64,000 bases of DNA from an uncultured Bacteroidia bacterium (GTDB lineage: Bacteria > Bacteroidota > Bacteroidia > Bacteroidales > UBA932): the NCBI GenBank assembly GCA_902794005.1, contig CADBFO010000005.1, positions 1 to 64,000 on the forward strand, given 5' to 3'. Below the pieces are notes generated by a model that worked only from the letters and a program-made list of their open reading frames with translations, did no database searches and had not been told where the DNA came from. Positions 3,556 through 62,192 of the stretch are shown one piece after another. A program made the position numbers and the translations under genes. How positions within the stretch are numbered: the stretch's first letter is position 1; each line of letters starts with the position of its first letter.

Positions 3556-4844
3556 TAATATTTGGGCCAGCAGGCCTCGAGATAGGCACGCAGAGCGTTT
3601 TCATGCTTGTTCACCTGCGGCTGATAGAACACCGTACCTTTAATGGCCTCCGGAAGGAATTCCATGTCCACGAAATTCCCGGGATAGTCGTGGGCGTACT
3701 TGTAGCCGTCACTGTAACCCAGATCCTCCATCAGCTGGGTAGGTGCGTTGCGGATGGGGAGGGGGACCGGCAGATTGCCCGTTTCCTTTACTTTGGCCAG
3801 CGCATTCTCCAGGGCCATATACGAAGCGTTGCTCTTGGGGGAGGAAGCCAGATAGACCGTAGTCTCCGCCAGGGGAATCCGCCCTTCCGGCATGCCGATC
3901 TTGGACACCACCTCAAAGCAGGCATTGGCCAACAGGAGGGCATTGGGGTTTGCCAGGCCCACATCCTCTGAAGCGCTCAAGCAAAGGCGGCGGGCGATGA
4001 ACAGCGGATCCTCTCCGCCTTCAATCATCCGGGCCAGGTAGTAGATGGCGGCATTGGGGTCCGACCCGCGGATGCTTTTGATAAAGGCCGAGATGATGTC
4101 ATAGTGCATCTCCCCGTCCTTGTCGTATATGGCCATGTTTTCCTGAACGGAAGCCGTGACGGTGGCGTTGTCGATGACGACAGGGGAGTGACCCGCCTGC
4201 GCATCCGTCACCAGTTCCAGCACATTGAGCAGTTTGCGGGCATCTCCGCCGCTGTAACGCAGCAGAGCCTCGTTCTCCTTGATCACAATCTCCTTCTCCT
4301 TCAGCAGGACATCCTCCTTCAGCGCACGGTCCAGAAGCTGCTGCAGATCGGCCTTCTCCAGTGATTTCAGGACAAAAACCTGGCAGCGGGACAGAAGGGG
4401 AGTGATCACCTCGAAAGAAGGGTTCTCCGTGGTGGCTCCGATCAGTACGATGGTGCCGTTTTCAACCGCTCCCAGAAGGGCGTCCTGCTGGGCTTTGTTG
4501 AAGCGATGAATCTCGTCAATGAACAGGATGGGCGCTCCTTTCCGATTGAACAGGGAAGACCCGCCGGCCTTTTCAAAAACTTCCCGCACATCCTTCACGC
4601 CGGCGGTGACGGCCGACAAAGTGAAGAAATCCCGGTCCAGCGTCTCGGCGATGATATGGGCAAGGGTTGTCTTTCCCACGCCCGGAGGGCCCCACAGGAT
4701 GAACGAACTGAGGTTCCCGCTCTCGATCATCTTCCTCAGGATGCATCCTTCGCCCACCAGATGCCGCTGGCCCACGTACTGGTCCAGCGTCCGGGGACGC
4801 ATCCGCTCCGGAAGCGGAGGAAGCATGGAAGAAGACGCACTCAT
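3543..4844 (-). CDS. rarA: Replication-associated recombination protein A (AAA+ ATPase)
   Basis: The 433-residue protein is a full-length RarA/MgsA. Walker A is GPPGVGKTT (K58), Walker B is FIDEIHRF, and the sensor region GATTENPSFEV is exactly family-like; the C-terminal MgsA tetramerisation part is present. RarA acts at stalled replication forks and binds SSB and DNA ends. It is co-transcribed behind the GNAT-like gene: the ATG at 4842-4844 overlaps the stop of that gene. Its 3' end overlaps tamL on the opposite strand by 13 bases. Confidence 0.95.
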   Translation of the reverse strand: MSASSSMLPPLPERMRPRTLDQYVGQRHLVGEGCILRKMIESGNLSSFILWGPPGVGKTTLAHIIAETLDRDFFTLSAVTAGVKDVREVFEKAGGSSLFNRKGAPILFIDEIHRFNKAQQDALLGAVENGTIVLIGATTENPSFEVITPLLSRCQVFVLKSLEKADLQQLLDRALKEDVLLKEKEIVIKENEALLRYSGGDARKLLNVLELVTDAQAGHSPVVIDNATVTASVQENMAIYDKDGEMHYDIISAFIKSIRGSDPNAAIYYLARMIEGGEDPLFIARRLCLSASEDVGLANPNALLLANACFEVVSKIGMPEGRIPLAETTVYLASSPKSNASYMALENALAKVKETGNLPVPLPIRNAPTQLMEDLGYSDGYKYAHDYPGNFVDMEFLPEAIKGTVFYQPQVNKHENALRAYLEACWPKYYQKG

Positions 4845-5974
4845 TATATAGGCTTGCTATAGACGCGACGGCGGCGCTTGAACTCTTTCTCGTACATGTT
4901 CCAGATATTCTGCACCTTGGTATTGGATTCCATTTCGGCATTGGATTCGCCGTATTTGAAGCCGCCCTCAATGAGGTTGGGAATAATCTCGTTGAAAAGC
5001 ATGGCATGCACGCCCCGGTTGCGGTATTCGGGATCCACGGCGATAAGCATCAGTTCCAGGGCCTCTTCATGCTTGATATACATGGATTTCAGCAAATGCC
5101 ACCAGCCCGTCGGGAAAAGGTAGCCGTTCCCCTTCTTGACAGCGCGCGCCAGGGAAGGCATGGTGATGGCCAGCGCGATGAGTTTGCCGTCGGCATCTTC
5201 CACCAGTGTCACATACTTGAGATTCAAAAGCCCCAGGAAGGTATCCACATACTGGTCGATCACGTCCGGAGGAAGAACCGTGTAGTCGAACAGATCACAG
5301 TAGGTTCGGTTCACCAGGTCGAACAGTTTCTGTCCATAATTTTCTTTCGCGACTTCCTTTTTGGTAATCTTGCGGATATGCAGCTTATAGCGTTCAGAGA
5401 CCAGTTCGGCGGCACGGACCACCTTGTCCGGAACTTGGTCGGGAACATAAATGCGGTACTCCAGCCAATCGTTGGCCTTGTTCATGCCCAAAGCCTCAAA
5501 ATGCTCCCCATAATAGGGATAATTGTATTTGAGCATAAAGGAAGAGATGTCATCGAATCCTTCCACTACGCAGCCTTCATTGTCGAAATCGGTGAAACCG
5601 AGGGGACCGCTGACCGTGTCCATCCCGTATTCCCGGCCGAAGGCAATCACGGCGTCCATCAGCGCACCGGATACTTCCTTGTCATCGATGAAATCCATCC
5701 AGCCGAAACGAACCTCCTTGTGATTCCAGTCCCTGTTGGCAATCTCGTTGATGATGGCGATGACGCGCCCGGCGATTTTCCCATCCTTGTAGGCCAGAAA
5801 TTTCCTGGACTTGGAATACTTTCCCATGGCGTTTTTCCCGGGGTCCAGCGTGGACATTTCGTCCACGTAAATGTTGGGGACATAGTACGGGCAGTTCTTG
5901 TAAAGTGAAAGGGGAAATTTCACGAATTTACGAAGATTGGCCTTGGTTTCGACGGTCTTGATGACGACGGACAT
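4844..5974 (-). CDS. GNAT-fold protein of unknown substrate (paralogue 1 of 2)
   Basis: 376 residues from the ATG at 5972-5974. A longer frame starting at 6016 is ruled out because that ATG sits inside the -7 element at 6014-6021, and the paralogue at 59797-60930 starts at the matching position. The C-terminal third holds a GNAT-like acyl-CoA/pantetheine loop (AVDPEYRNRGVHA). Shared blocks with the paralogue include the N-terminal FVKFPLSLYKNCPYYVP-like segment, a VEGF(D/E) block and NYPYYGEHFEALG versus NFPYYKDHVEKLG. The two are clearly homologous but not close copies. The substrate is unknown; the paralogue lies in a fatty-acid operon. It is followed directly by rarA with a one-base overlap, perhaps only a shared transcript. 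Confidence 0.7.
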   Translation of the reverse strand: MSVVIKTVETKANLRKFVKFPLSLYKNCPYYVPNIYVDEMSTLDPGKNAMGKYSKSRKFLAYKDGKIAGRVIAIINEIANRDWNHKEVRFGWMDFIDDKEVSGALMDAVIAFGREYGMDTVSGPLGFTDFDNEGCVVEGFDDISSFMLKYNYPYYGEHFEALGMNKANDWLEYRIYVPDQVPDKVVRAAELVSERYKLHIRKITKKEVAKENYGQKLFDLVNRTYCDLFDYTVLPPDVIDQYVDTFLGLLNLKYVTLVEDADGKLIALAITMPSLARAVKKGNGYLFPTGWWHLLKSMYIKHEEALELMLIAVDPEYRNRGVHAMLFNEIIPNLIEGGFKYGESNAEMESNTKVQNIWNMYEKEFKRRRRVYSKPI

Positions 5975-6013
5975 ATCTCTATGAATCAGTTTCGGTTTTG
6001 TGTAAACGTGCTG

Positions 6014-6021
6014 CAAAGATA
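6014..6021 (-). promoter_or_regulatory. -7 element of the GNAT-like/rarA operon
   Basis: TATCTTTG on the minus strand, 39 bases before the chosen start at 5974. It begins immediately after the terminator T-run of the upstream lipoprotein gene, so one unit ends and the next begins within 40 bases. Confidence 0.65.
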
Positions 6022-6054
6022 CAAAAAAAACTGCACTCGAAAGGGGAGTGCAGT
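6022..6054 (-). terminator. Intrinsic terminator of the barrel/lipoprotein operon
   Basis: Read on the minus strand, a perfect 9-bp stem (ACTGCACTC, 6046-6054 paired with 6030-6038) with a 7-base loop is followed by eight T residues. This is a classical Rho-independent terminator after the lipoprotein gene ending at 6076. Confidence 0.85.
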
Positions 6055-6075
6055 CCTTAATTAATTATAGGCGCT

Positions 6076-6945
6076 TTACTTTTGCTCAGTAAGGTCAAAT
6101 TCTATGGTGCCGGTATAGGTATTCCAGAGATGCTTGGCAGAAGTGCTGATGACAAGCGTGCACTTGGAATCGGCCGGGAAGGCGATGCTGCCGTTGGCCG
6201 AGACGTTCAGAAGGTCGTTCCCCTCGACGAGGTTGTAACTGAAATCCATGTTGGAGGTAATCTTGAAGGTTCCCCTGTAGCAGACACCGTTCACAAAACT
6301 GATGACGAAGGTATCGGATGCCGTAAAAATGACTTCGTCCACTTTCAGTCCCTTGAAAGAATTCATGTTCTCTTCGCTGAACGGGACACCATTTTTCTTG
6401 GCATAGACGGAAATCTCCTCCAAGTCGCAGCCGGAGAATTTCCGCTGCAGATTGTAGCTGCCGCCGACAAGGCCGACAATGACGGAATTCACCTTCCAGG
6501 TACGGGAAGCATTGAAATGATAGTCCGACGCAGCCTGGGAAGTGGTGACCGTAGCCGTCACGGTCTGCGCTTCTCCGGATGCGGGGGTAAAGGTGACACT
6601 GTTCCCGTTCGTCTTTACGGAACCGACGCCGGAAAGGTTGTAAACACCGTTCTGATAAGTGAAGGACCCCACAGATACTTCTTCCTTTGTGATGGCTTTG
6701 GAAGCAGTGGGTGCATAGGTCATAATAAAGCGGGAGGCCTCGGTAAACTCGATTTTCTTGATGTCCACCGGTGTGTCTTTTACAAGCAGGGAAGGAGTCT
6801 TTTCACCGGAAAAAGTGACTACGGCCGCAACATCCTTGGTGGCCGGATCGGCCATCTTGATATTGTCCTCCATCCCGCCGTTCTTATTGCAAGAATAGGG
6901 AAGTATCAGCGAAAAGGCAAGAAGGAGATAATAAAAATTTTTCAT
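6076..6945 (-). CDS. Hypothetical lipoprotein
   Basis: 289 residues with a lipoprotein-type signal peptide ending at Cys19 (context ILPYSC). The mature part is rich in Thr, Ser and Val in alternating pattern, suggesting beta-sandwich repeats; the end (NTYTGTIEFDLTEQ) is strand-like. I do not recognise a named family; it resembles the many secreted lipoproteins of unknown function in Bacteroidales. It starts 3 bases after the stop of the upstream barrel gene, so the two are one operon and may act together at the cell surface. Confidence 0.7.
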   Translation of the reverse strand: MKNFYYLLLAFSLILPYSCNKNGGMEDNIKMADPATKDVAAVVTFSGEKTPSLLVKDTPVDIKKIEFTEASRFIMTYAPTASKAITKEEVSVGSFTYQNGVYNLSGVGSVKTNGNSVTFTPASGEAQTVTATVTTSQAASDYHFNASRTWKVNSVIVGLVGGSYNLQRKFSGCDLEEISVYAKKNGVPFSEENMNSFKGLKVDEVIFTASDTFVISFVNGVCYRGTFKITSNMDFSYNLVEGNDLLNVSANGSIAFPADSKCTLVISTSAKHLWNTYTGTIEFDLTEQK

Positions 6946-6948
6946 AAT

Positions 6949-7719
6949 TTAAAAAATATTAAAGAATACATTTAACTTAATCATGGGAAGGACAGGAAGT
7001 TTGTTCAAAAAATCCAGAAGACCCCTGTCCCGGTCATCCACAACGTGGCTGGTAATGATTACCGGTTCACCGGCATTGTTCCGGAGATAATTGTAGGACT
7101 GCGTTTTGACACTGGTGACCAGGACCCCCATGTCGAACGTGACGCTCACGAGATGCCTGGTATTGACTGCATGGCCGAAACCGATGCCCACATAGGGCAT
7201 CACGGGGTTTGTCATGACGTCCATTTTAACGAAACCGTCCATGTCGGAGGAAATGAAAACACCATTGTGGCTGAAAGCCAGATGACCATATTCGTCGGGC
7301 GTAAGGATTTCCCGGGCATCCATGGAGAGGTCGAACATTTTTCCGGAGCCGATGAACAGGCCGGCGGCAAAATGGAAAGGAAGGCTGGGCCAGGGATAGA
7401 TATCGGCAATCAGTTTTCCCTGACCGCCTTCCAAAGGAGTGGCGGAAATGGGAACACGGGTCATATCCAGCTTACGGGTGCTGGAAACAGTGAATGAACC
7501 GAAATTGTAGATTGATGTAACCTTTGTGGGGACAAAAAGCGAGTACCCGGCCCGCAGTTGCACATAGCGTGTGATTGGAGCAGACACTTCAATGCCCAAA
7601 CCGTCGAGGCCGACCGTTGCCCCGACAGAAAGATGATTGAACAAGCCTTTGTCCTCCTGAGCAAAGGCCGAAAAGCCCAACATCAGGACAGAGATGAAAA
7701 GGGAAAACAATTTTTTCAT
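6949..7719 (-). CDS. Predicted outer-membrane beta-barrel protein
   Basis: 256 residues from the ATG at 7717-7719, which gives a clean signal peptide (MKKLFSLFISVLMLGFSAFA). An upstream in-frame ATG at 7776 is rejected because it lies beyond the promoter element at 7736-7743. The mature protein has alternating hydrophobic residues, many Gly and Tyr, and ends in an aromatic strand (NVFFNIF, C-terminal Phe), all typical of outer-membrane barrels; a stretch YVGIGFGHAV also fits. Function unknown. Operon with the lipoprotein gene 3 bases downstream. Confidence 0.7.
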   Translation of the reverse strand: MKKLFSLFISVLMLGFSAFAQEDKGLFNHLSVGATVGLDGLGIEVSAPITRYVQLRAGYSLFVPTKVTSIYNFGSFTVSSTRKLDMTRVPISATPLEGGQGKLIADIYPWPSLPFHFAAGLFIGSGKMFDLSMDAREILTPDEYGHLAFSHNGVFISSDMDGFVKMDVMTNPVMPYVGIGFGHAVNTRHLVSVTFDMGVLVTSVKTQSYNYLRNNAGEPVIITSHVVDDRDRGLLDFLNKLPVLPMIKLNVFFNIF

Positions 7720-13327: not shown

Positions 13328-14470
13328 CTAATCCAGCTGTTCTTTGGCCAGAACCGGATTGCTGTAGATATGCAGGAAGATATCCGCTAAATCCATTCGG
13401 TTCAGATTGGGTTCCACGCGCAGGAACTGCTTGGCGACATAAGACTTGAATGCCTCCAAGTCCTCCGGCGTATATTCTGCGGCGTATTTGTCGGTAGCAT
13501 ACACCATATCGTACGCCATATAGTTGGTCTTCCAGAGCTTGTAACCTTCGATGACCCGGCGGTCCACCAAATGGCGGATCTGCTGGTAGCGGTCATTTTT
13601 GTCGCAAAGGGACGCCTCATGGATTTCCTCCTCCGTAAGCGGCTTGCCGATCGTGAGGTGAACATGCCCCTTGGGCTGCCGGATTCCCGTCATGATGCTC
13701 TCCAGATCTTCGGTCTCCCCTTTCACGTACTTTTGGCTGCGTGAAATCAGCAGTTCGCGCGCCTTCATGACATCGCAGGGCTCGTATTCGTACGAGATGC
13801 TCATCGGAAGGATGTTCAGTTCCTTGAAATTCTCCACGAAACCCTTGGTTCCGCTCATGTCCAGCATCTTCAGAAGGCCCTGTTCAGTAGTATCTAAGCC
13901 ATCCTTGGTGCGTCCCTGCCGCTGGGCAATCCATACGGACGATGTGCCGGATGTTACCGTTTCGCGGATATAGCGGGACAAAAGCTGCGAGGAGAGATAC
14001 AATTCCCGGGCCGATATGCCCCGAATGACCTTGATCATGCGGTTGGAGCGGATAAGCAGCTCCACCGACTTGAATTTCAAGAGATTATCGCCCACGCAAA
14101 TCTGCGTTTCGGGGAGATGGTTCTGTTGCAGGATAATCTGCACCAGAGCCGGATCCAGAATAATGTCCCGGTGATTGGACATTGCGATGTACTTGCCGTC
14201 CAATGCCTGCAAATTCTCCAGACCGTCATAGCTAAAATCGGTCATGCTGGTGTCTATAACCCATTGAATGGCCTTGGCCATCACCACGGACTGGAACTGG
14301 TCCACCGTGTGGATATTCCGAAGGACCTCACCCAGGAAGGTTTCCGGCTTGTCCGGAAAGATAAACTTGGATATCCATTTGGTATTGGGATGATTGGAAA
14401 GCCGCGTCAAGGCAGCATCGGCCTCTTCGTCGGTAAAGGGAGCAATATCGCTGAATTCTGTCAGATCCAT
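13328..14470 (-). CDS. PlsC-like acyltransferase
   Basis: 380 residues. The segment YIAMSNHRDIILDP (H100, D106) matches the acyltransferase block I, but with one extra residue between His and Asp compared with the common HX4D. Downstream GQ/R-rich blocks (IRGISAREL, WIAQRQGRTKDG) match blocks II and III used for glycerol-phosphate binding and an LGMSISYEYEP-like block IV follows. Such proteins in Bacteroidota are called 1-acyl-glycerol-3-phosphate or glycerol acyltransferases; the true acceptor is unknown. No transmembrane helix stands out. Confidence 0.7.
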   Translation of the reverse strand: MDLTEFSDIAPFTDEEADAALTRLSNHPNTKWISKFIFPDKPETFLGEVLRNIHTVDQFQSVVMAKAIQWVIDTSMTDFSYDGLENLQALDGKYIAMSNHRDIILDPALVQIILQQNHLPETQICVGDNLLKFKSVELLIRSNRMIKVIRGISARELYLSSQLLSRYIRETVTSGTSSVWIAQRQGRTKDGLDTTEQGLLKMLDMSGTKGFVENFKELNILPMSISYEYEPCDVMKARELLISRSQKYVKGETEDLESIMTGIRQPKGHVHLTIGKPLTEEEIHEASLCDKNDRYQQIRHLVDRRVIEGYKLWKTNYMAYDMVYATDKYAAEYTPEDLEAFKSYVAKQFLRVEPNLNRMDLADIFLHIYSNPVLAKEQLD

Positions 14471-54792: not shown

Positions 54793-54823
54793 TTTCTAAT
54801 TCAAAGAATTATGCCTATATTTG
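54793..54823 (+). promoter_or_regulatory. Promoter of the MMPL-fakAB-plsX-acp operon
   Basis: TTTC (54793-54796) and TATATTTG (54816-54823), 19-base spacer. It places the transcription start after an in-frame ATG at 54821, so translation must begin at 54848. Confidence 0.6.
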
Positions 54824-54847
54824 TATGTTATACACATACTCAAAGGA

Positions 54848-57328
54848 ATGCATAGGATTTTTTTGCCGATATACCGCTTTTTCAGGGATCACAAGGCCCT
54901 GATGTATCTTCTGATGATGGGCAGTACGCTGTTGTTCGCCTGGTTCGGGGCCCAGCTGCAGTACGAGGAAAACATTGTCAAGCTTCTGCCCCGTTCTTCC
55001 ACGGACAACGAACTGGCTTTCAGTGAAATCGACCTGAAGGACAAAGTGTTCCTGCAGATAACTTCCAGAGATTCGCTCTCCCCCGTAGGGACAGACCGCC
55101 TGGCGGAAGCCATGGATGAATATTGCGCCATGCTGGAAAAGCGCGACAGCGTCACGCGCTACATCAAGGGCATCCTTTCTTCCTTCGATACCGACATGGC
55201 CATGGGAGCCATGGATTTTGCGCTTACGCATCTCCCCACTTTCGTGGACACCTCCTGGTACAAGGATATCCGGACATCCCTGCAGCCGGAAGAAATCGAC
55301 AGGCAGATGAGCGAGAATTTCCGCATCCTTGAAGAAGATGAAACCGGCGAGGCCACCCAGCTGGTGGCAATGGATCCACTCAACCTCCGGGAAACCCTCA
55401 TGGGGGCTGTCCTGGGCGGGAACGCCTTCGGCGGATTCACCATGCAGGACGGACATCTGTTCTGCCCGGACAAAAGCGTATCCCTCGCCTTCATCACGCC
55501 CAATTTTAACGGCGTGGATTCCGGAAAAGGCACCCGCTTCGTGAACATGATGAACAAGGCGACCAAAGATTTTGAAGCCGGGAACCCCGACATCCGCGTC
55601 CTTGTTCATGGAACGCCGCAGGAAAGCGTATCCAACGCCAGCACCATCAAGAAAGACCTGGCTCTCACCATCAGCCTCTCCCTGCTGCTCATCCTGGTGA
55701 TCATGCTCATGAGTTTCCACAAGTTCTCCTTCATCTGGCAGCAGGTGGTCCCGGTCATTTACGGCGCCCTCTTCGCCATGGCGTGCCTGTATTGGATGAA
55801 GGGTACCATTTCCCTCATGGCCCTGGGCATCAGCGCCATCGTACTGGGCGTCGCCATCAGCTACTGCCTGCACGTACTCATCCACTTCTACTATGTCGGG
55901 GATGTGGAAAAACTGCTCAGGGATGAGAGTACGCCCGTTTTCCTGGGCTGCCTCACCACCGTGGGCGCCTTCATGGGACTGCTGTTCACGGAAAGCGATC
56001 TCCTCAGGGATTTCGGCCTCTTTGCCACTTTCGCCCTTATCGGCAACACATTCTTCGCCCTGGTTTTCCTGCCGCATTTCCTGCATCCCGGACAAATCAA
56101 GTACAAGCGAACCCACGGTTTCCCGCTGGTGGAACGCATCAACAATCTGCCCTGGGACCGCAACAAATGGTTCATCGGCATCCTCCTTGTCCTCATTGTC
56201 GTGGGCGTCGCCTTCAGCCCCAGGGTAAAGTTCGACAGCGACCTCCAGAATCTGGACTATGACAAAGCTTCGCTTCGCGAAAGCGTGGAACTGTACAACA
56301 AAAAGAACGCGGACGGATTCACCCACATGTATTTTGCCGCATGGGACGAAAACAGCCTGGACAACGCCCTGGAATACAACAAGGGGCTTTTCCGGCATCT
56401 GGATTCCCTGCAGCAGGCCGGACTCGTCAAAAGTTACTCCCCCGTCACCCGCCTGCTTTTCCAGTCTCAGGCCGACCAGGAAATCAGAATCGCCGCCTGG
56501 CGCAAATTCTGGAACAGGGAGCGTGTCGCCCATCTCAGGCGGGACCTTGCGGCATCGGCCCGGGAATATGGGCTGCCCGAACGGCTTTTCGAGCCGTTCA
56601 TCAACATGGTCACCTCCAAATATGAAACGGGAGATCTGTTCCATTCAGGCGTCATTCCTCCGGGGCTGCTTTCCAATTATGTCGAGCAGCAGGAAAGCGG
56701 CCGCTTCATGGTGTTCACGGATGTATCCTATGAAAAGGCCCACCAGCAGAAAGTATGGAAAGCCATCACCCAGGCACCGCATGTGATTGTGCTGGAGCCT
56801 TTCTTCTATTGCCGCGACATGGTGGAAATTGTCCACGACGACTTTTCCACCACCTTATGGATTTCCAGCCTCTTCGTCCTCCTTGTGCTGCTGCTGAGTT
56901 TCCGAAACATCTGGATTGCCCTCCTGGCCTTCCTGCCCATGTTCACCAGCTGGTATGTAATGCAGGGCTACATGGCCCTCTTCGGCCTGGAATTCAACCT
57001 GATAAACATCGTTATTTCCACCTTTATTTACGGTATTGGCGTGGACTATAGCATCTTCGTGATGGAGGGCCTTCTGGCCGATGCCCGACGGGGCGAAAAA
57101 CAGATGCTCACCTATCACAAGGCGGCCATCTTCTACAGCGCCATGGTGCTGGCCATCGTCACCTTTTCACTTATTTTCGCCCAGCATCCGGCCATCCGGT
57201 CCATCGGCCTCATCACCCTCATCGGCATGGCGTCCACCATCCTCATCACCTATTCGCTGCAGCCCTGGCTGTTCCGCATTCTCACGCGCTACCGCTTCTT
57301 CCGCCGCAGTTTCCGCATTCCAGAATAA
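54848..57328 (+). CDS. MMPL/RND-family lipid-type exporter
   Basis: 826 residues from the ATG at 54848. Architecture: one N-terminal helix (about 18-40), a large extracytoplasmic domain, five helices, a second extracytoplasmic domain and a second helix bundle, as in MMPL and RND permeases. Family-like stretches are SAIVLGVAISYCLH and the second-bundle VISTFIYGIGVDYSIFVMEGLL, where the Asp may be part of proton relay. Such proteins export lipids or hopanoids. It is the first gene of the six-gene lipid operon; fakA starts 3 bases after its stop. Confidence 0.85.
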   Translation: MHRIFLPIYRFFRDHKALMYLLMMGSTLLFAWFGAQLQYEENIVKLLPRSSTDNELAFSEIDLKDKVFLQITSRDSLSPVGTDRLAEAMDEYCAMLEKRDSVTRYIKGILSSFDTDMAMGAMDFALTHLPTFVDTSWYKDIRTSLQPEEIDRQMSENFRILEEDETGEATQLVAMDPLNLRETLMGAVLGGNAFGGFTMQDGHLFCPDKSVSLAFITPNFNGVDSGKGTRFVNMMNKATKDFEAGNPDIRVLVHGTPQESVSNASTIKKDLALTISLSLLLILVIMLMSFHKFSFIWQQVVPVIYGALFAMACLYWMKGTISLMALGISAIVLGVAISYCLHVLIHFYYVGDVEKLLRDESTPVFLGCLTTVGAFMGLLFTESDLLRDFGLFATFALIGNTFFALVFLPHFLHPGQIKYKRTHGFPLVERINNLPWDRNKWFIGILLVLIVVGVAFSPRVKFDSDLQNLDYDKASLRESVELYNKKNADGFTHMYFAAWDENSLDNALEYNKGLFRHLDSLQQAGLVKSYSPVTRLLFQSQADQEIRIAAWRKFWNRERVAHLRRDLAASAREYGLPERLFEPFINMVTSKYETGDLFHSGVIPPGLLSNYVEQQESGRFMVFTDVSYEKAHQQKVWKAITQAPHVIVLEPFFYCRDMVEIVHDDFSTTLWISSLFVLLVLLLSFRNIWIALLAFLPMFTSWYVMQGYMALFGLEFNLINIVISTFIYGIGVDYSIFVMEGLLADARRGEKQMLTYHKAAIFYSAMVLAIVTFSLIFAQHPAIRSIGLITLIGMASTILITYSLQPWLFRILTRYRFFRRSFRIPE

Positions 57329-57330
57329 GC

Positions 57331-58935
57331 ATGGACATCCTTGACGCAACACTATACCTAAAACTGATCCGTGGCGCTGCTGCCCATCTGGCGGAAAACC
57401 GCCAGGCCATCAACGACCTCAATGTCTTCCCGATTCCGGACGGAGACACGGGAGACAACATGTACATGACCCTCGAGGCCGGCGGCCACGCCCACGGGCA
57501 GACGCTTTCCGAAATGGCCGATGCGGTTTCCCGGGGCATGCTCATGGGTGCCCGCGGCAATTCCGGCGTAATCCTTTCCCGTATCTTCGCCGGCATCGCC
57601 AAAGGGTTCAAGGGCCTCTCGATGGCCGATATCCCGGCCCTTGCGAAAGCCATGCAATGTGGTGTGGACGAGGCTTACCATGCCGTCTCCCAGCCTGTGG
57701 AAGGAACCATGCTCACCGTCCTGCGGGAAGGTGTCAGCGCCGCATCCGGCGCCCGGAGCCTGAAAGAATATTTCGACCTGTGGATTGCCGGGATGGACCT
57801 GTCCCTGCAACATACACCGGAACTGCTGGACGTCCTCAAGAAAGCGGGGGTCGTGGACAGCGGCGGAGCAGGGCTTCTCTGCGTAGGAGAAGGAATGCGG
57901 GAGGCGCTGCACGGGAGACAGCCGGTCGGCGCTCCCGAAGAGGGTCCGGGCGGCAGCCCGTCCCATGCCGTCGATTTCAACGCCTTTACGGAAGACAGCG
58001 AACTCGAGTTCGGCTACTGCACGGAATTTCTCCTCCGTCTCCAGCGGAGCAAAGTGAACCTGGATACCTTCGACGAGGATGTCATCCGGCAATGGCTGAC
58101 CTCCCAGGGGGATTCCCTGGTCTTTTTCCGCGACGGAAGCATCATAAAAGTACACGTACATACCCAGGACCCCGGTGCCGTTCTCAGCAAATGCCGCGAA
58201 TGGGGCGAGTTTCTCACCATCAAGGTGGAGAACATGACCCTGCAGCACCACGAGAACCACATGGAAGAGCGTTTCAAGCGCAGCCGCAAATCCCTTGGTG
58301 TCGTGACCGTTGCGGCCGGGAAAGGTCTCAGCGACACATTCAAGGAGATGGGGGCTGACGCCGTCATCGAAGGCGGGCAAACCATGAACCCGCCCGTAGA
58401 AAAGTTCCTGGAAGCCTTCGACCAGGTGGATGCCGACAACATCCTGGTCTTCCCCAACAACGGCAATATCATTCTCACAGCCCATCAGGCTGCCTCCCTG
58501 TACAAGGACTCCTGCATCAAGATCGTCCCTGCCAAAACCCCGGGGGAAGGCTATTTCGCCCTCGCGAGCCTGAATTCCGAACTGCCGATCGATGAACTTG
58601 TCGCCGTCCTCACGGATGCGGCACAGAGCGTCACTACCGGCCTGGTTTCGCGCGCCGTCCGGGATACGGACGAGGCCCGCTGCGGAGATTTTATCGGCTA
58701 CTGCGGAAAAGACATCCTCACCTCCGGAAAAGACCGGACGGAAGCCCTCCTTTCGCTCGCGCAAAAACTGGAAGCCGGAAAAGCAGACATCCTCATTCTC
58801 TTTTTCGGGGCCGATACTCCCGCAGATGAAGCGGAAGTCGTGTATAAGACCCTCGAGAAACAGTTTCCCAGAACGGAAGCAATCCTGCTCGACGGCGGAC
58901 AACCCATCTACGATTATATTCTGGTACTATGCTGA
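57331..58935 (+). CDS. fakA: Fatty acid kinase catalytic subunit FakA (DAK2/YloV type)
   Basis: 534 residues. The N-terminal DAK2 (DhaL) domain has the metal/ATP signature NVFPIPDGDTGDNMYMT and GARGNSGVILS; the middle and C-terminal domains (SAMP-like region with PNNGNIILTAHQAA) complete the YloV architecture. FakA phosphorylates fatty acids bound to FakB to give acyl-phosphate. The next gene encodes a FakB (overlap 7 bases), then PlsX and ACP follow, which strongly supports the function. FakA is best known from Firmicutes. Confidence 0.9.
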   Translation: MDILDATLYLKLIRGAAAHLAENRQAINDLNVFPIPDGDTGDNMYMTLEAGGHAHGQTLSEMADAVSRGMLMGARGNSGVILSRIFAGIAKGFKGLSMADIPALAKAMQCGVDEAYHAVSQPVEGTMLTVLREGVSAASGARSLKEYFDLWIAGMDLSLQHTPELLDVLKKAGVVDSGGAGLLCVGEGMREALHGRQPVGAPEEGPGGSPSHAVDFNAFTEDSELEFGYCTEFLLRLQRSKVNLDTFDEDVIRQWLTSQGDSLVFFRDGSIIKVHVHTQDPGAVLSKCREWGEFLTIKVENMTLQHHENHMEERFKRSRKSLGVVTVAAGKGLSDTFKEMGADAVIEGGQTMNPPVEKFLEAFDQVDADNILVFPNNGNIILTAHQAASLYKDSCIKIVPAKTPGEGYFALASLNSELPIDELVAVLTDAAQSVTTGLVSRAVRDTDEARCGDFIGYCGKDILTSGKDRTEALLSLAQKLEAGKADILILFFGADTPADEAEVVYKTLEKQFPRTEAILLDGGQPIYDYILVLC

Positions 58936-59795
58936 AAATCTACACCGACACTGACACAGACATTACCCCGGCCATCGCTGCGGAGTACGGTTACACACTC
59001 ATTTCGATGCCCTACAGCATCGATACCAAGACCACCTACCCGTATGTGGACTTCGAAACCTTCGATGCCCATGCCTTCTACGATATCCTGCGCGGCGGCG
59101 TCCTGCCAACCACAAGCGCCATTTCCAAGGAACAGTACCTTAACTATTTCGTCCGCGATTTCGCCGCCGGAAACGACATCCTGTATGTCCACTTTTCCCG
59201 CGCCATGACCAACACCTTCGACGCCATGGACCAGGCTGTCGCGGAACTCAAAAAAAAGTATCCCGGCACGCGCTTTGAGGAGATTGACACCAAGGGAATC
59301 ACCACCATCAGCTACAACATCGTACGCGAGGTGGGAGACCTCTACAAAGCCGGGAAAACCCTGGACGAAATCCTGGAGTGGGCCAAAACGGAAGTGGACA
59401 AGTTTGCCATGTACTTCTTTGCCGACGACCTCAAGTTCTTCCGCCGCAGCGGACGTGTCAGCGGCCTTGCCGCCACCATGGGAACGCTCATCGGCGTCCG
59501 CCCCCTCATTCACATGAGCCAGGAAGGCAAGATGGTCTCCGTGGGAACCGCCAAGGGACGCGTCAAGGCCATGGAATACCTGGTGGACAAAGTTGGCGAA
59601 CTGGGAGACGAAGTCAAGGAACACCGCGTCTGCATCGGCCATTCCGATTCTCCGGAAATCGCCCGGGAGGTCGGACGCATGTTAGAAGAGAAATATGGCA
59701 AGCTCACCCTGGAATATGTGGACGTAAACCCCACTGCCGGAAGCCATTGCGGCCCCAACGGCGTCGGAGTCTGCTTCCACGCGAAACGGCGCTGA
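58929..59795 (+). CDS. fakB: Fatty-acid-binding DegV-family protein (FakB)
   Basis: 288 residues. The N-terminal TDTDTDIT matches the DegV opening, TTSAIS (61-66) the TxSxxS block, FADDLKFFRRSGRVS the Arg that meets the phosphate, and AGSHCGPNGVGV the C-terminal His block. The fatty-acid carboxylate loop, usually SSGLSGT, reads SRAMTNT (90-96): the key Ser is Thr94. It presents the fatty acid to FakA. The gene overlaps fakA by 7 bases and is 1 base from the GNAT-like gene. Confidence 0.85.
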   Translation: MLKIYTDTDTDITPAIAAEYGYTLISMPYSIDTKTTYPYVDFETFDAHAFYDILRGGVLPTTSAISKEQYLNYFVRDFAAGNDILYVHFSRAMTNTFDAMDQAVAELKKKYPGTRFEEIDTKGITTISYNIVREVGDLYKAGKTLDEILEWAKTEVDKFAMYFFADDLKFFRRSGRVSGLAATMGTLIGVRPLIHMSQEGKMVSVGTAKGRVKAMEYLVDKVGELGDEVKEHRVCIGHSDSPEIAREVGRMLEEKYGKLTLEYVDVNPTAGSHCGPNGVGVCFHAKRR

Positions 59796-59796
59796 T

Positions 59797-60930
59797 ATGA
59801 TTACTGTCAAGCAAGTCCGGACCAAACGGGAGCAGAAGCAGTTTCTGCATTTCTCCCTGGACCTGTACAAAGGAAATCCCTTCTTTGTACCGCCTTTGTA
59901 TGGCGACGAGAAAAAAATGTTCCGCGCAGACTATGTGTACAATACGTCCTGCGACAGTGTCTTTTTCCTTGCCTGTGACGGAGATCAAGTCGTCGGACGC
60001 ATCCAGGGAATCATCCAGAAAGACGCCAACGCGAAAAACGGCGAGAAACGCTGCCGCTTCACCCGCTTCGACGTCATCGATAATCCTGCAGTTTCCCAGG
60101 CGCTGTTCCAGGCGCTGGAGGCTTGGGCCTGGGAAAAAGGGATGGACACGCTTGTGGGGCCTCTCAACTATTCGGACCTGGAACGTGAAGGCATGCTGGT
60201 CGAAGGTTTTGAAGAACCGTCAACTTTTGAGCAGACCTACAACTTTCCTTACTATAAGGACCATGTGGAGAAACTGGGATTCCGAAAGGAAACAGACTGG
60301 ACTTGCAGCCGGATTTATGGTCCCGAGAGCGATGAAGCCATGCAGGAACTGGACCAGCTGGTCTCGTTCATTTTCCGACGCTACAAGCTCCATTTCGGCC
60401 ATGCGAAGAGCGGACCGGACCTGCTGAAGAAATATGCCGGCGGGATGTTCGACCTGATTGACAAATCCTATGAAGGCCTGTACGGAACCGTTCCCTTCAC
60501 TCCCGGCATGCGCCGGCTTGTGCTGGATAATTTCGGCCTGGTCCTCAGCCCCAAATATGCAGCCGTCATTCTGGACGAAAACGAGAAGCCCGTCTGTTTC
60601 GGCCTGGCCATCCCCTCACTGAACCGCGCCCTTCAGGGAACCCGCGGATACCTGACTCCCCTTACGCTCATCCGTCTTCTGGGATGTCTCCGGAAACCGG
60701 ATGTGCTCGATCTCTGTCTGGTCGGGGTGGACCCGGAATACCTCAATCGCGGGGTTTCCGGCGCTCTCTCCCTGGCCATCATGCGGATGCTCAAGGAAAA
60801 TGCCTCCCTCAAGTGGGCCGATACCAACCTCAATCTGGAAGACAATTATGCCATCCAGAATCAGTGGCGCCGCTTCCGGCGCGAAGAATGCAAGCGCTAC
60901 CGCGCGTATGTCAAGGAACTGTCAGTCTGA
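59797..60930 (+). CDS. GNAT-fold protein, possible lipid acyltransferase (paralogue 2 of 2)
   Basis: 377 residues, homologous along its length to the protein at 4844-5974: FSLDLYKGNPFFVPPLYGDE, a VEGFEEPSTF block, NFPYYKDHVEKLGF and a C-terminal GVDPEYLNRGVSGALSLAI loop that fits the GNAT pantetheine-binding site. Here it lies between fakB and plsX. Since acyl-phosphate and acyl-ACP are made by its neighbours, an acyltransferase that uses acyl-ACP is the simplest guess; this is inference only, and the fold alone would also allow acetyl-CoA. Confidence 0.65.
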   Translation: MITVKQVRTKREQKQFLHFSLDLYKGNPFFVPPLYGDEKKMFRADYVYNTSCDSVFFLACDGDQVVGRIQGIIQKDANAKNGEKRCRFTRFDVIDNPAVSQALFQALEAWAWEKGMDTLVGPLNYSDLEREGMLVEGFEEPSTFEQTYNFPYYKDHVEKLGFRKETDWTCSRIYGPESDEAMQELDQLVSFIFRRYKLHFGHAKSGPDLLKKYAGGMFDLIDKSYEGLYGTVPFTPGMRRLVLDNFGLVLSPKYAAVILDENEKPVCFGLAIPSLNRALQGTRGYLTPLTLIRLLGCLRKPDVLDLCLVGVDPEYLNRGVSGALSLAIMRMLKENASLKWADTNLNLEDNYAIQNQWRRFRREECKRYRAYVKELSV

Positions 60931-60946
60931 ACAAAGTGAAGAATCC

Positions 60947-61966
60947 ATGATCAAAATCCTGATAGACTGCTTTGGCGGCGACCATTGCCCCGAAGCTCCG
61001 GTGAACGGAGCCATTGCGGCCCTCAAGGCCAATCCGGACCTGCACCTGATGCTTACCGGAGATGAAACGCTTCTGCGGAAAGAACTGGAAGGGAAGGTCT
61101 TTGATGCCGGGCGCCTTGAAATTATCCATGCGCCGGAAGTCATCGGCAGTGACGAAAAGCCCACGGATGCCGTACGCCTCAAACGGAACTCTTCCATGAT
61201 GAAGGCCATCATTCTCCTGCGGGACCGGGACGATATTGCCGCGATGGTCTCCACCGGTTCCACGGGTGCGCTTGTCACAGGAGCGCTCGTGCGTTTGGGG
61301 CGCATTCCCGGCGTTATCCGTCCTGCCTTCTGCCCCATTCTGCCCACCATGGACGGAGGGATTGTAGGCATTTGTGACAGCGGCGCCAATGTGGAAGTAA
61401 GCAGCGCACATCTTCGCCAGTTCGCCATCATGGCATCGCTCTACATGGAGAATGTCTATGGTGTCAAGAATCCCCGCACGGCGCTTTTGAACGTAGGAAA
61501 AGAGGCCGAAAAGGGAGATGACATGCGGCGGGAAACCTACGGGCTCCTGCAGGAAACCGAATCCGTGAATTTCGTCGGGAACATGGAAAGCCGGGATCTG
61601 CTTTCCGGAAAGTATGACGTGGTGGTGGCCGACGGCTTCTCCGGCAACGTGCTGGTGAAAACCACGGAAGGGACAGCCCTGGAGCTTCTCAAAAAAATCA
61701 AGAAAGATATCTGTAGCCGCACCCTCTACAAGATGGGAGCCTTGCTGATGAGCCGGATGTTCAAGGACGAGAAGGAATTCATGAACTACCAGAACTATGG
61801 CGGCAGCGTATTACTCGGCACGTCGAAAGTGGTTGTGAAAGGCCACGGTTCTTCCAAGGCTGTCGCCGTGGAAAAGTGCATTGAGCAGGCTTACAAGATG
61901 GAAGCGAGCCGGCTTTCCGGAAAGATTGAAACAGAAATCGCCAAATACGAGCATTATGATGTTTGA
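60947..61966 (+). CDS. plsX: Phosphate acyltransferase PlsX
   Basis: 339 residues from the ATG at 60947. Family motifs: DCFGGDHCPEAPVNGA at the N-terminus, STGSTGALVTGALVRLGRI, the TALLNVGKEAEKGDD block and DGFSGNVLVKTTEG. PlsX converts acyl-ACP and phosphate to acyl-phosphate and back, at the membrane surface. In many Bacteroidota plsX is next to rpmF; here it is in the FakAB operon. The stop overlaps the ACP gene by 11 bases. Confidence 0.95.
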   Translation: MIKILIDCFGGDHCPEAPVNGAIAALKANPDLHLMLTGDETLLRKELEGKVFDAGRLEIIHAPEVIGSDEKPTDAVRLKRNSSMMKAIILLRDRDDIAAMVSTGSTGALVTGALVRLGRIPGVIRPAFCPILPTMDGGIVGICDSGANVEVSSAHLRQFAIMASLYMENVYGVKNPRTALLNVGKEAEKGDDMRRETYGLLQETESVNFVGNMESRDLLSGKYDVVVADGFSGNVLVKTTEGTALELLKKIKKDICSRTLYKMGALLMSRMFKDEKEFMNYQNYGGSVLLGTSKVVVKGHGSSKAVAVEKCIEQAYKMEASRLSGKIETEIAKYEHYDV

Positions 61967-62192
61967 GAAAGTACAAGCCATCCTGGCAAAGCAGCTTCGC
62001 CAGGACCCGGCGAAGATTACGCCGGAATCCCTGATAAAAAAAGATTTGGGGGCCGATTCCCTGGATATCCTCCAGCTTCTGATGCGCATCGAGGACCAGT
62101 ACGGCATCGTCATCCCCGACCAGGCTCTGGCCCAATTTGAAACCGTGGCCGACGTGGTCGCTTATCTGGAACAGCAGGAAGTAAAACTGTAA
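61956..62192 (+). CDS. Acyl carrier protein
   Basis: 78 residues from the first of two adjacent ATGs (61956; 61959 is equally good). The phosphopantetheine site is GADSLD with Ser35, and the body is the usual acidic four-helix ACP (DQYGIVIPDQALAQFETVADV). It is a second ACP type in a specialised operon rather than the housekeeping one next to fabF; a role with PlsX or the GNAT-like protein is likely. Overlaps plsX by 11 bases. Confidence 0.88.
   Translation: MMFEKVQAILAKQLRQDPAKITPESLIKKDLGADSLDILQLLMRIEDQYGIVIPDQALAQFETVADVVAYLEQQEVKL

Follow-up and report, generated by a model that had tools for sequence, protein, structure and literature searches.

The window analysed here, a 64,000-nucleotide stretch of an uncultured gut or rumen Bacteroidia bacterium of the order Bacteroidales (contig CADBFO010000005.1, assembly GCA_902794005.1), carries a putative fatty acid kinase operon of six open reading frames (ORFs), all confirmed on the plus strand at 54848–62192, and the following features were assigned.

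54816–54823, plus strand: putative -7 promoter element TATATTTG, of the form TAnnTTTG, assigned from the sequence and from recurrence of the motif upstream of related operons
54848–57328, plus strand: MMPL/HpnN-like RND transporter, an optional member of the operon (PF03176, 52.7 bits)
57331–58935, plus strand: FakA, predicted catalytic subunit of fatty acid kinase, DAK2-YloV type (TIGR03599, 500 bits)
58929–59795, plus strand: FakB, predicted fatty acid binding subunit of the DegV family (PF02645, 176 bits)
59797–60930, plus strand: predicted N-acyltransferase with tandem GNAT fold, YghO/CerS family (BLASTP match to YghO; structure model)
60947–61966, plus strand: PlsX, the sole copy found in its own genome (TIGR00182, 332 bits)
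61959–62192, plus strand: acyl carrier protein (ACP) of the operon (TIGR00517, over cut-off)

Operon architecture and the predicted fatty acid kinase

The genes are separated by 2 bases (MMPL–FakA), 1 base (FakB–GNAT) and 16 bases (GNAT–PlsX) or overlap by 7 bases (FakA–FakB) and 8 bases (PlsX–ACP), a spacing that suggests co-transcription of all six. The coordinates and spacing bear out the six tightly packed genes on one strand described in an earlier note on this DNA, and the family searches agree with the six identities given there, although the match of the GNAT-like protein to Pfam GNAT is sub-threshold (E 0.0011, 19.6 bits vs a cut-off of 20.7). The MMPL gene starts with ATG at 54848, and an in-frame TTG lies at 54821. 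Counting the window, 26 of 35 operons have the motif TAnnTTTG, which we take to be the consensus of the Bacteroidota -7 element, in the 100 bases that precede their first gene; shuffled sequences would give 2.1. No clear -33 element was seen by eye upstream of the operon.

FakA exceeds the cut-off of the NCBIfam profile TIGR03599 (YloV) and exhibits the expected architecture of DAK2 domain, middle domain and FakB-like C domain (PF02734, PF21645 and PF13684, all over cut-off). The counterparts of Staphylococcus aureus N32, D38, D40, T41, N82, D185, C240, H282 and H284, which correspond by motif and offset rather than by a printed alignment with the S. aureus protein to N31, D37, D39, T40, N77, D176, C230, H275 and H277 of the window FakA, are invariant in 11 of 11 aligned FakA sequences, and passages of PMC9136124 describe these S. 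aureus residues as important for catalysis or for nucleotide or Mg binding. FakB is over the Pfam cut-off for DegV and matches solved FakB1 chains such as 7sg3. Among 37 copies, T62, R176 and H273 of FakB are invariant and T94 is threonine (22) or serine (15), these four being presumably the carboxyl-binding positions. From the established biochemistry of the two families, FakA would phosphorylate a fatty acid held on FakB.

Conservation and distribution in Bacteroidales

FakA (PF13684) matched 6 of 296 genomes sampled across the phylum, with only the genome of the window giving a strong match, which agrees with the expectation that FakA is rare in Bacteroidota; matches rose to 13/295 genomes in the order and 70/398 in the family, where the distribution is patchy (5 of 25 genera). 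Forty regions around FakA were compared, 38 from the family and two from elsewhere in the order, and 36 of these were of the operon type, the other four being three divergent FakA loci and the FakA end of a split locus in genome G298. The order MMPL-FakA-FakB-GNAT-PlsX-ACP was present in 19 of the 36 loci, and the same order without MMPL, with upstream sequence present, in another 11; FakA-FakB-GNAT-PlsX-ACP is thus kept in 30/36 with gaps mostly below 30 bases, and the lack of conservation that the earlier note had named beforehand as speaking against its proposal was not what was found. In the remaining six loci the set is incomplete, has been rearranged or is truncated at a contig end, and GNAT sits between FakB and PlsX in 32/36.

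The MMPL protein is over the PF03176 cut-off and matches the HpnN and HAE3 models below theirs. Its gene is the first in 19 of 30 complete operons and absent from 11 otherwise complete ones with at least 3.6 kb of upstream sequence; it was also undetected in all 12 of the Clostridia-type loci listed (described below), some of which end close to FakA. MMPL is therefore optional to the module, and export of the product by this protein, as proposed earlier, is weakened.

G298, from a different family of the same order, has the operon divided between two contigs: one carries FakA and the beginning of FakB, the other the remainder of FakB, a PF01553 acyltransferase (458 residues, 25 bits vs a cut-off of 23), PlsX and ACP. 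Here the acyl-supply genes stay and the acyltransferase in the place of GNAT is swapped, which fits a set whose other genes provide an acyltransferase with acyl-ACP. A divergent FakA-FakB pair was also observed elsewhere in the phylum and order (L003, L015–L017, L020), with about 28% identity to the window FakA and about 21% to its FakB; neither GNAT nor PlsX was detected around these pairs, in loci only about 3.5 kb long.

PlsX, ACP and the absence of PlsY

PlsX exceeds the TIGR00182 equivalog cut-off (332.5 vs 243.4 bits) and is the single PF02504 match in its genome (89% complete). Gene content was surveyed in 52 genomes, comprising 26 operon-positive genomes (own included; the others 92–99% complete), 20 FakA-negative ones from the same genus and six others. 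Each of the 26 operon-positive genomes has one PlsX over cut-off, which lies in the operon or in a contig fragment of it and in G588 is broken into two pieces at two contig ends; three of these genomes show one more match below cut-off. Only one of the 20 FakA-negative genomes (G713) has PlsX; PlsX accordingly travels with the module. PlsY was found in 0/26 operon-positive and 0/20 FakA-negative genomes of the genus, the only four matches in the survey being in G420, G667, G732 and G523, and 19 of the 20 operon-negative genomes lack both PlsX and PlsY. Since PlsY is absent with and without the operon, the genus would acylate glycerol-3-phosphate by other means. A PF01553 acyltransferase of 380 residues, encoded at 13328–14470 of the window (minus strand), is a candidate for this missing enzyme.

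The PlsX reaction is freely reversible in vitro, as stated in passages of PMC12594616. Because PlsY is absent and PlsX is tied to the module, FakAB and PlsX most likely work here from acyl-phosphate to acyl-ACP, so the activation of free fatty acid to acyl-ACP put forward in the earlier note gains strength from the survey. The operon ACP is over the TIGR00517 cut-off and carries the DSL motif, as do 27 of 32 aligned operon ACPs; its genome has three PP-binding matches, namely this one and two other ACP-type matches, and it is 33% identical to the housekeeping-type ACP at locus L008. A general loss of type II fatty acid synthesis (FASII) in operon carriers was rejected, as ketoacyl synthase (PF02801) is present in 23 of the 26. 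The three in which it was not found, G811, G900 and G617 (93–96% complete), may be fatty acid auxotrophs carrying the Fak operon, or may reflect assembly gaps.

The GNAT-like protein and its family

The GNAT-like protein has no NCBIfam match, and no convincing relative in the PDB was found by sequence. It is homologous over its full length to YghO of Escherichia coli BL21 (BLASTP, 26% identity, E 2e-38), and its AlphaFold2 model (pLDDT 88) displays a tandem GNAT fold. By this homology it is a predicted member of the YghO/CerS N-acyltransferase family, so that the product of the operon is most likely an N-acyl lipid. An ordinary acetyltransferase is disfavoured by the YghO homology and the context, despite the best fold matches being acetyltransferases. 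The acyl transfer foreseen in the earlier note can hence be sharpened to a predicted N-acyl transfer, with the acceptor lying between sphingoid bases and other amines. Passages of PMC9386255 give yghO as the presumptive acyl-CoA N-acyltransferase gene of dihydroceramide synthesis, and the Caulobacter counterpart CC_1154 is proposed as CerS in the part of PMC11324152 consulted. In BL21, yghO adjoins genes for a fatty acyl-AMP ligase, an epimerase, an ACP and serine palmitoyltransferase (SPT).

The YghO/CerS family was present in 52 of 52 surveyed genomes, with one to five matches each, and separate paralogue clades were observed in the trees: one linked to CDP-alcohol transferase, UvrA or SPT, others linked to RarA, to PrfA and to an AMP ligase, and the operon clade. 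The operon clade has an SH-aLRT support of 100 in the paralogue tree, which holds 14 of 41 operon-type rows and a subset of the listed paralogues (the 880-residue L259 read was dropped), and 100/100 in the tree with Clostridia.

Two further paralogues were observed in the genome of the window. The third family member lies at 4844–6016 (minus strand), beside a gene for a RarA/MgsA-like ATPase; within the genus, the RarA-linked clade is found in G668, G779 and G791, which bear SPT and are FakA-negative, and it may hold the true ceramide synthase, against which stand sister rows in the SPT-less G303, G691 and G702. The second one lies in the region 3494–7628 of L009 (contig C18), near an ACP-type match (5926–6108, minus strand) and an AMP-binding ligase (6138–7628, minus strand), as most members of its clade lie near a ligase, and this arrangement is a possible counterpart of AasR/AcpR.

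Relatives in Clostridia

Related loci were also sought by a scan of named genomes, of which the best 80 loci were taken, so that counts are lower bounds; taxon labels are the titles of metagenome-assembled genome (MAG) records, and the Clostridia identity is presumed from the N-termini of neighbouring ORFs. Besides Bacteroidales and Bacteroidia MAG loci, including one titled Candidatus Cryptobacteroides choladohippi, FakA together with a GNAT of the operon clade was observed in at least 12 loci outside Bacteroidales, titled Clostridia, Clostridiales, Bacillota, Lachnospiraceae, Oscillospiraceae, Ruminococcaceae or Ruminococcus. Among the 12 Clostridia-type loci listed, FakB was detected in nine, PlsX in ten, ACP in eight and all five genes in five, and five (L336, L338, L341, L353 and L366) have another gene order or spacing. 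Of 15 Clostridia genomes that have this kind of FakA, 10 hold two PlsX over cut-off, which fits the presence of a dedicated copy. The complete set reported from a Bacteroidota operon is therefore present and conserved, but it is not specific to Bacteroidota, its relatives in Clostridia having been missed by the earlier note.

Five Clostridia rows are the first to branch off in the GNAT tree (100/99), and the Bacteroidales sequences lie in two groups among Clostridia, the branches that separate these groups being only moderately supported. As the Bacteroidales GNATs nest among Clostridia rows, a Clostridia-like donor is the probable origin of the module in Bacteroidales, where it has been retained patchily, possibly after two transfers.

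Proposed function and alternative explanations

The operon is read as a dedicated source of acyl-ACP linked to an N-acyltransferase, a reading to which a probability of about 0.6 is given. FakB would bind free fatty acid, exogenous or recycled, FakA would phosphorylate it to acyl-phosphate, PlsX would pass the acyl chain on to the ACP encoded in the operon, and the YghO/CerS-type GNAT would transfer it to the amine of a small or lipid acceptor to give an N-acyl lipid, while the MMPL/RND transporter, found in part of the Bacteroidales only, may move the product or a precursor. The acyl-phosphate and acyl-ACP steps would follow from the established biochemistry of the families; N-acyl transfer and transport are what we infer beyond it. 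Leading candidate acceptors are sphingoid bases, cell-made or salvaged, and amino acids.

Several points weigh against this proposal. The scores of FakA and FakB fall well under the cut-offs of the NCBI equivalogs NF038248 (398.8 vs 975 bits) and NF038249 for FakB1 (87.3 vs 350 bits), and the enzyme roles of the operon proteins are predictions from sequence. GNAT was undetected in two of the 36 loci (L065, L085) and PlsX in three (L054, L075 at a contig end, and L085). The solved structures nearest to the GNAT model are tandem GNAT proteins (best E 5.7e-13) and mostly acetyltransferases, so that a long acyl chain as donor is likewise a prediction, and the function of YghO itself is proposed, not proven, in the consulted parts of its literature. 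The GNAT could also use acyl-ACP from general fatty acid synthesis, with FakAB-PlsX merely adjacent.

That the GNAT is a ceramide synthase, with the operon supplying the N-acyl chain of sphingolipids, and perhaps the acyl chain for SPT, as a Fak counterpart of AasR/AcpR in Rhodobacteria, is a possible but doubtful alternative. It is favoured by the YghO/CerS homology and by SPT of at least 54% identity in 24/26 operon-positive vs 5/20 operon-negative genomes of the genus, including the genome of the window (54%, contig C6, 97866–99053), and a GNAT paralogue adjoins SDR and SPT genes in G517 and G600. According to passages of PMC11324152, bacterial cerS is always encoded in an operon separate from that of the de novo genes, an arrangement that may serve salvage and leaves room for salvaged sphingoid bases as acceptor. 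Against this, no close SPT accompanies the operon in G635 and G864, and a control on the FabF tree (29 of 30 FabF-type rows, L115/G904 left out, covering 29 of the 52 genomes) provided only three independent comparisons, with SPT the same in most and no significance; the co-occurrence is thus not evidence of functional linkage and may be shared ancestry. Of the 15 Clostridia genomes reached through loci (12 with GNAT; completeness not given), two have SPT at 49–51% with an adjoining SDR gene, which speaks for this alternative, and the other 13 have only a distant match (two) or none (11), which speaks against it. In the operon-bearing genomes, other paralogue clades, linked to RarA, CDP-alcohol transferase or SPT, are equal or better CerS candidates. 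A sphingolipid role as the sole answer is weakened by the FabF-tree control and the Clostridia without SPT.

Service to phospholipids, with FakAB and PlsX making the donor and GNAT or another enzyme replacing PlsY as glycerol-3-phosphate acyltransferase, appears the least probable: these are phospholipid enzymes in Firmicutes, and with PlsY absent from all 26 carriers something else must acylate glycerol-3-phosphate, but the 19 operon-negative genomes lacking PlsX and PlsY make phospholipids without the operon, the window has the PF01553 acyltransferase noted above, and the GNAT resembles a proposed N-acyltransferase. Slightly less improbable, yet still unlikely, is general salvage or detoxification, in which free fatty acids would re-enter the shared acyl-ACP pool by way of FakAB-PlsX-ACP, with GNAT and MMPL as unrelated passengers. 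Recycling to acyl-ACP by FakAB-PlsX is known in Enterococcus faecalis (passages of PMC11586512) and further ACPs encoded in the genome might be charged by PlsX; this explanation has against it the position of GNAT between FakB and PlsX in most loci, the retention of one GNAT clade across two phyla and the separate ACP gene of the operon.

A wider form of the preferred acyl-ACP generator reading is held only tentatively, at somewhat under even odds: a mobile cross-phylum module in which fatty acid kinase, a PlsY-free PlsX and a private ACP would replace the acyl-ACP synthetase and feed an enzyme of the ceramide synthase family; with it, Bacteroidales and Clostridia of the rumen and gut would turn fatty acids from their surroundings into an N-acyl lipid so far undescribed. 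Carriers without SPT could re-acylate sphingoid bases from host or diet, a bacterial sphingolipid salvage. As a separate observation, the two loci with SPT at 49–51% identity to the Bacteroidales one followed by SDR (L373 and L374 in G986 and G987, titled Clostridia) suggest that Clostridia of the ruminant gut make sphingoid bases, or that the MAGs are contaminated.

Comparison with known systems

No description of this operon was found in the open-licence papers searched. The Bacteroidota member Alistipes finegoldii reportedly scavenges fatty acids to acyl-ACP by an acyl-ACP synthetase and has a PlsX/PlsY/PlsC phospholipid route (Radka et al. 2020, a study cited in PMC9386255). According to passages of PMC12594616, the form in which fatty acids are trapped is a thioester in Gram-negatives and acyl-phosphate in Firmicutes; the operon, if read correctly, would place the acyl-phosphate route in a Gram-negative, uncouple PlsX from phospholipids and point to an N-acyl lipid pathway common to two gut and rumen phyla.

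The MMPL protein resembles HpnN/HAE3 RND transporters, a match that assigns it no substrate. A close likeness for acyl supply is FakA/FakB/PlsX/AcpB of E. faecalis, in which fatty acid from outside the cell is converted to acyl-ACP by a fatty acid kinase, PlsX and an additional ACP (parts of PMC12594616 and PMC11586512), the purified chain making acyl-ACP (PMC12594616, same part). There, the product feeds phospholipids through PlsY/PlsC; the present operon belongs to a Gram-negative without PlsY and unites these genes in a single cluster with that of a predicted N-acyltransferase. The AasR/AcpR/SPT/CerS (YghO) genes of Caulobacter and E. coli BL21 likewise place free fatty acid on a special ACP and include a YghO/CerS-type enzyme (passages of PMC9386255), but AasR is an acyl-ACP synthetase (annotated as fatty acyl-AMP ligase in BL21) rather than a kinase, and their cluster holds SPT and an epimerase, both lacking in this operon. 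By analogy with both systems, the operon would represent a Fak-PlsX-AcpB chain of the E. faecalis type coupled to an acyltransferase of the YghO type.

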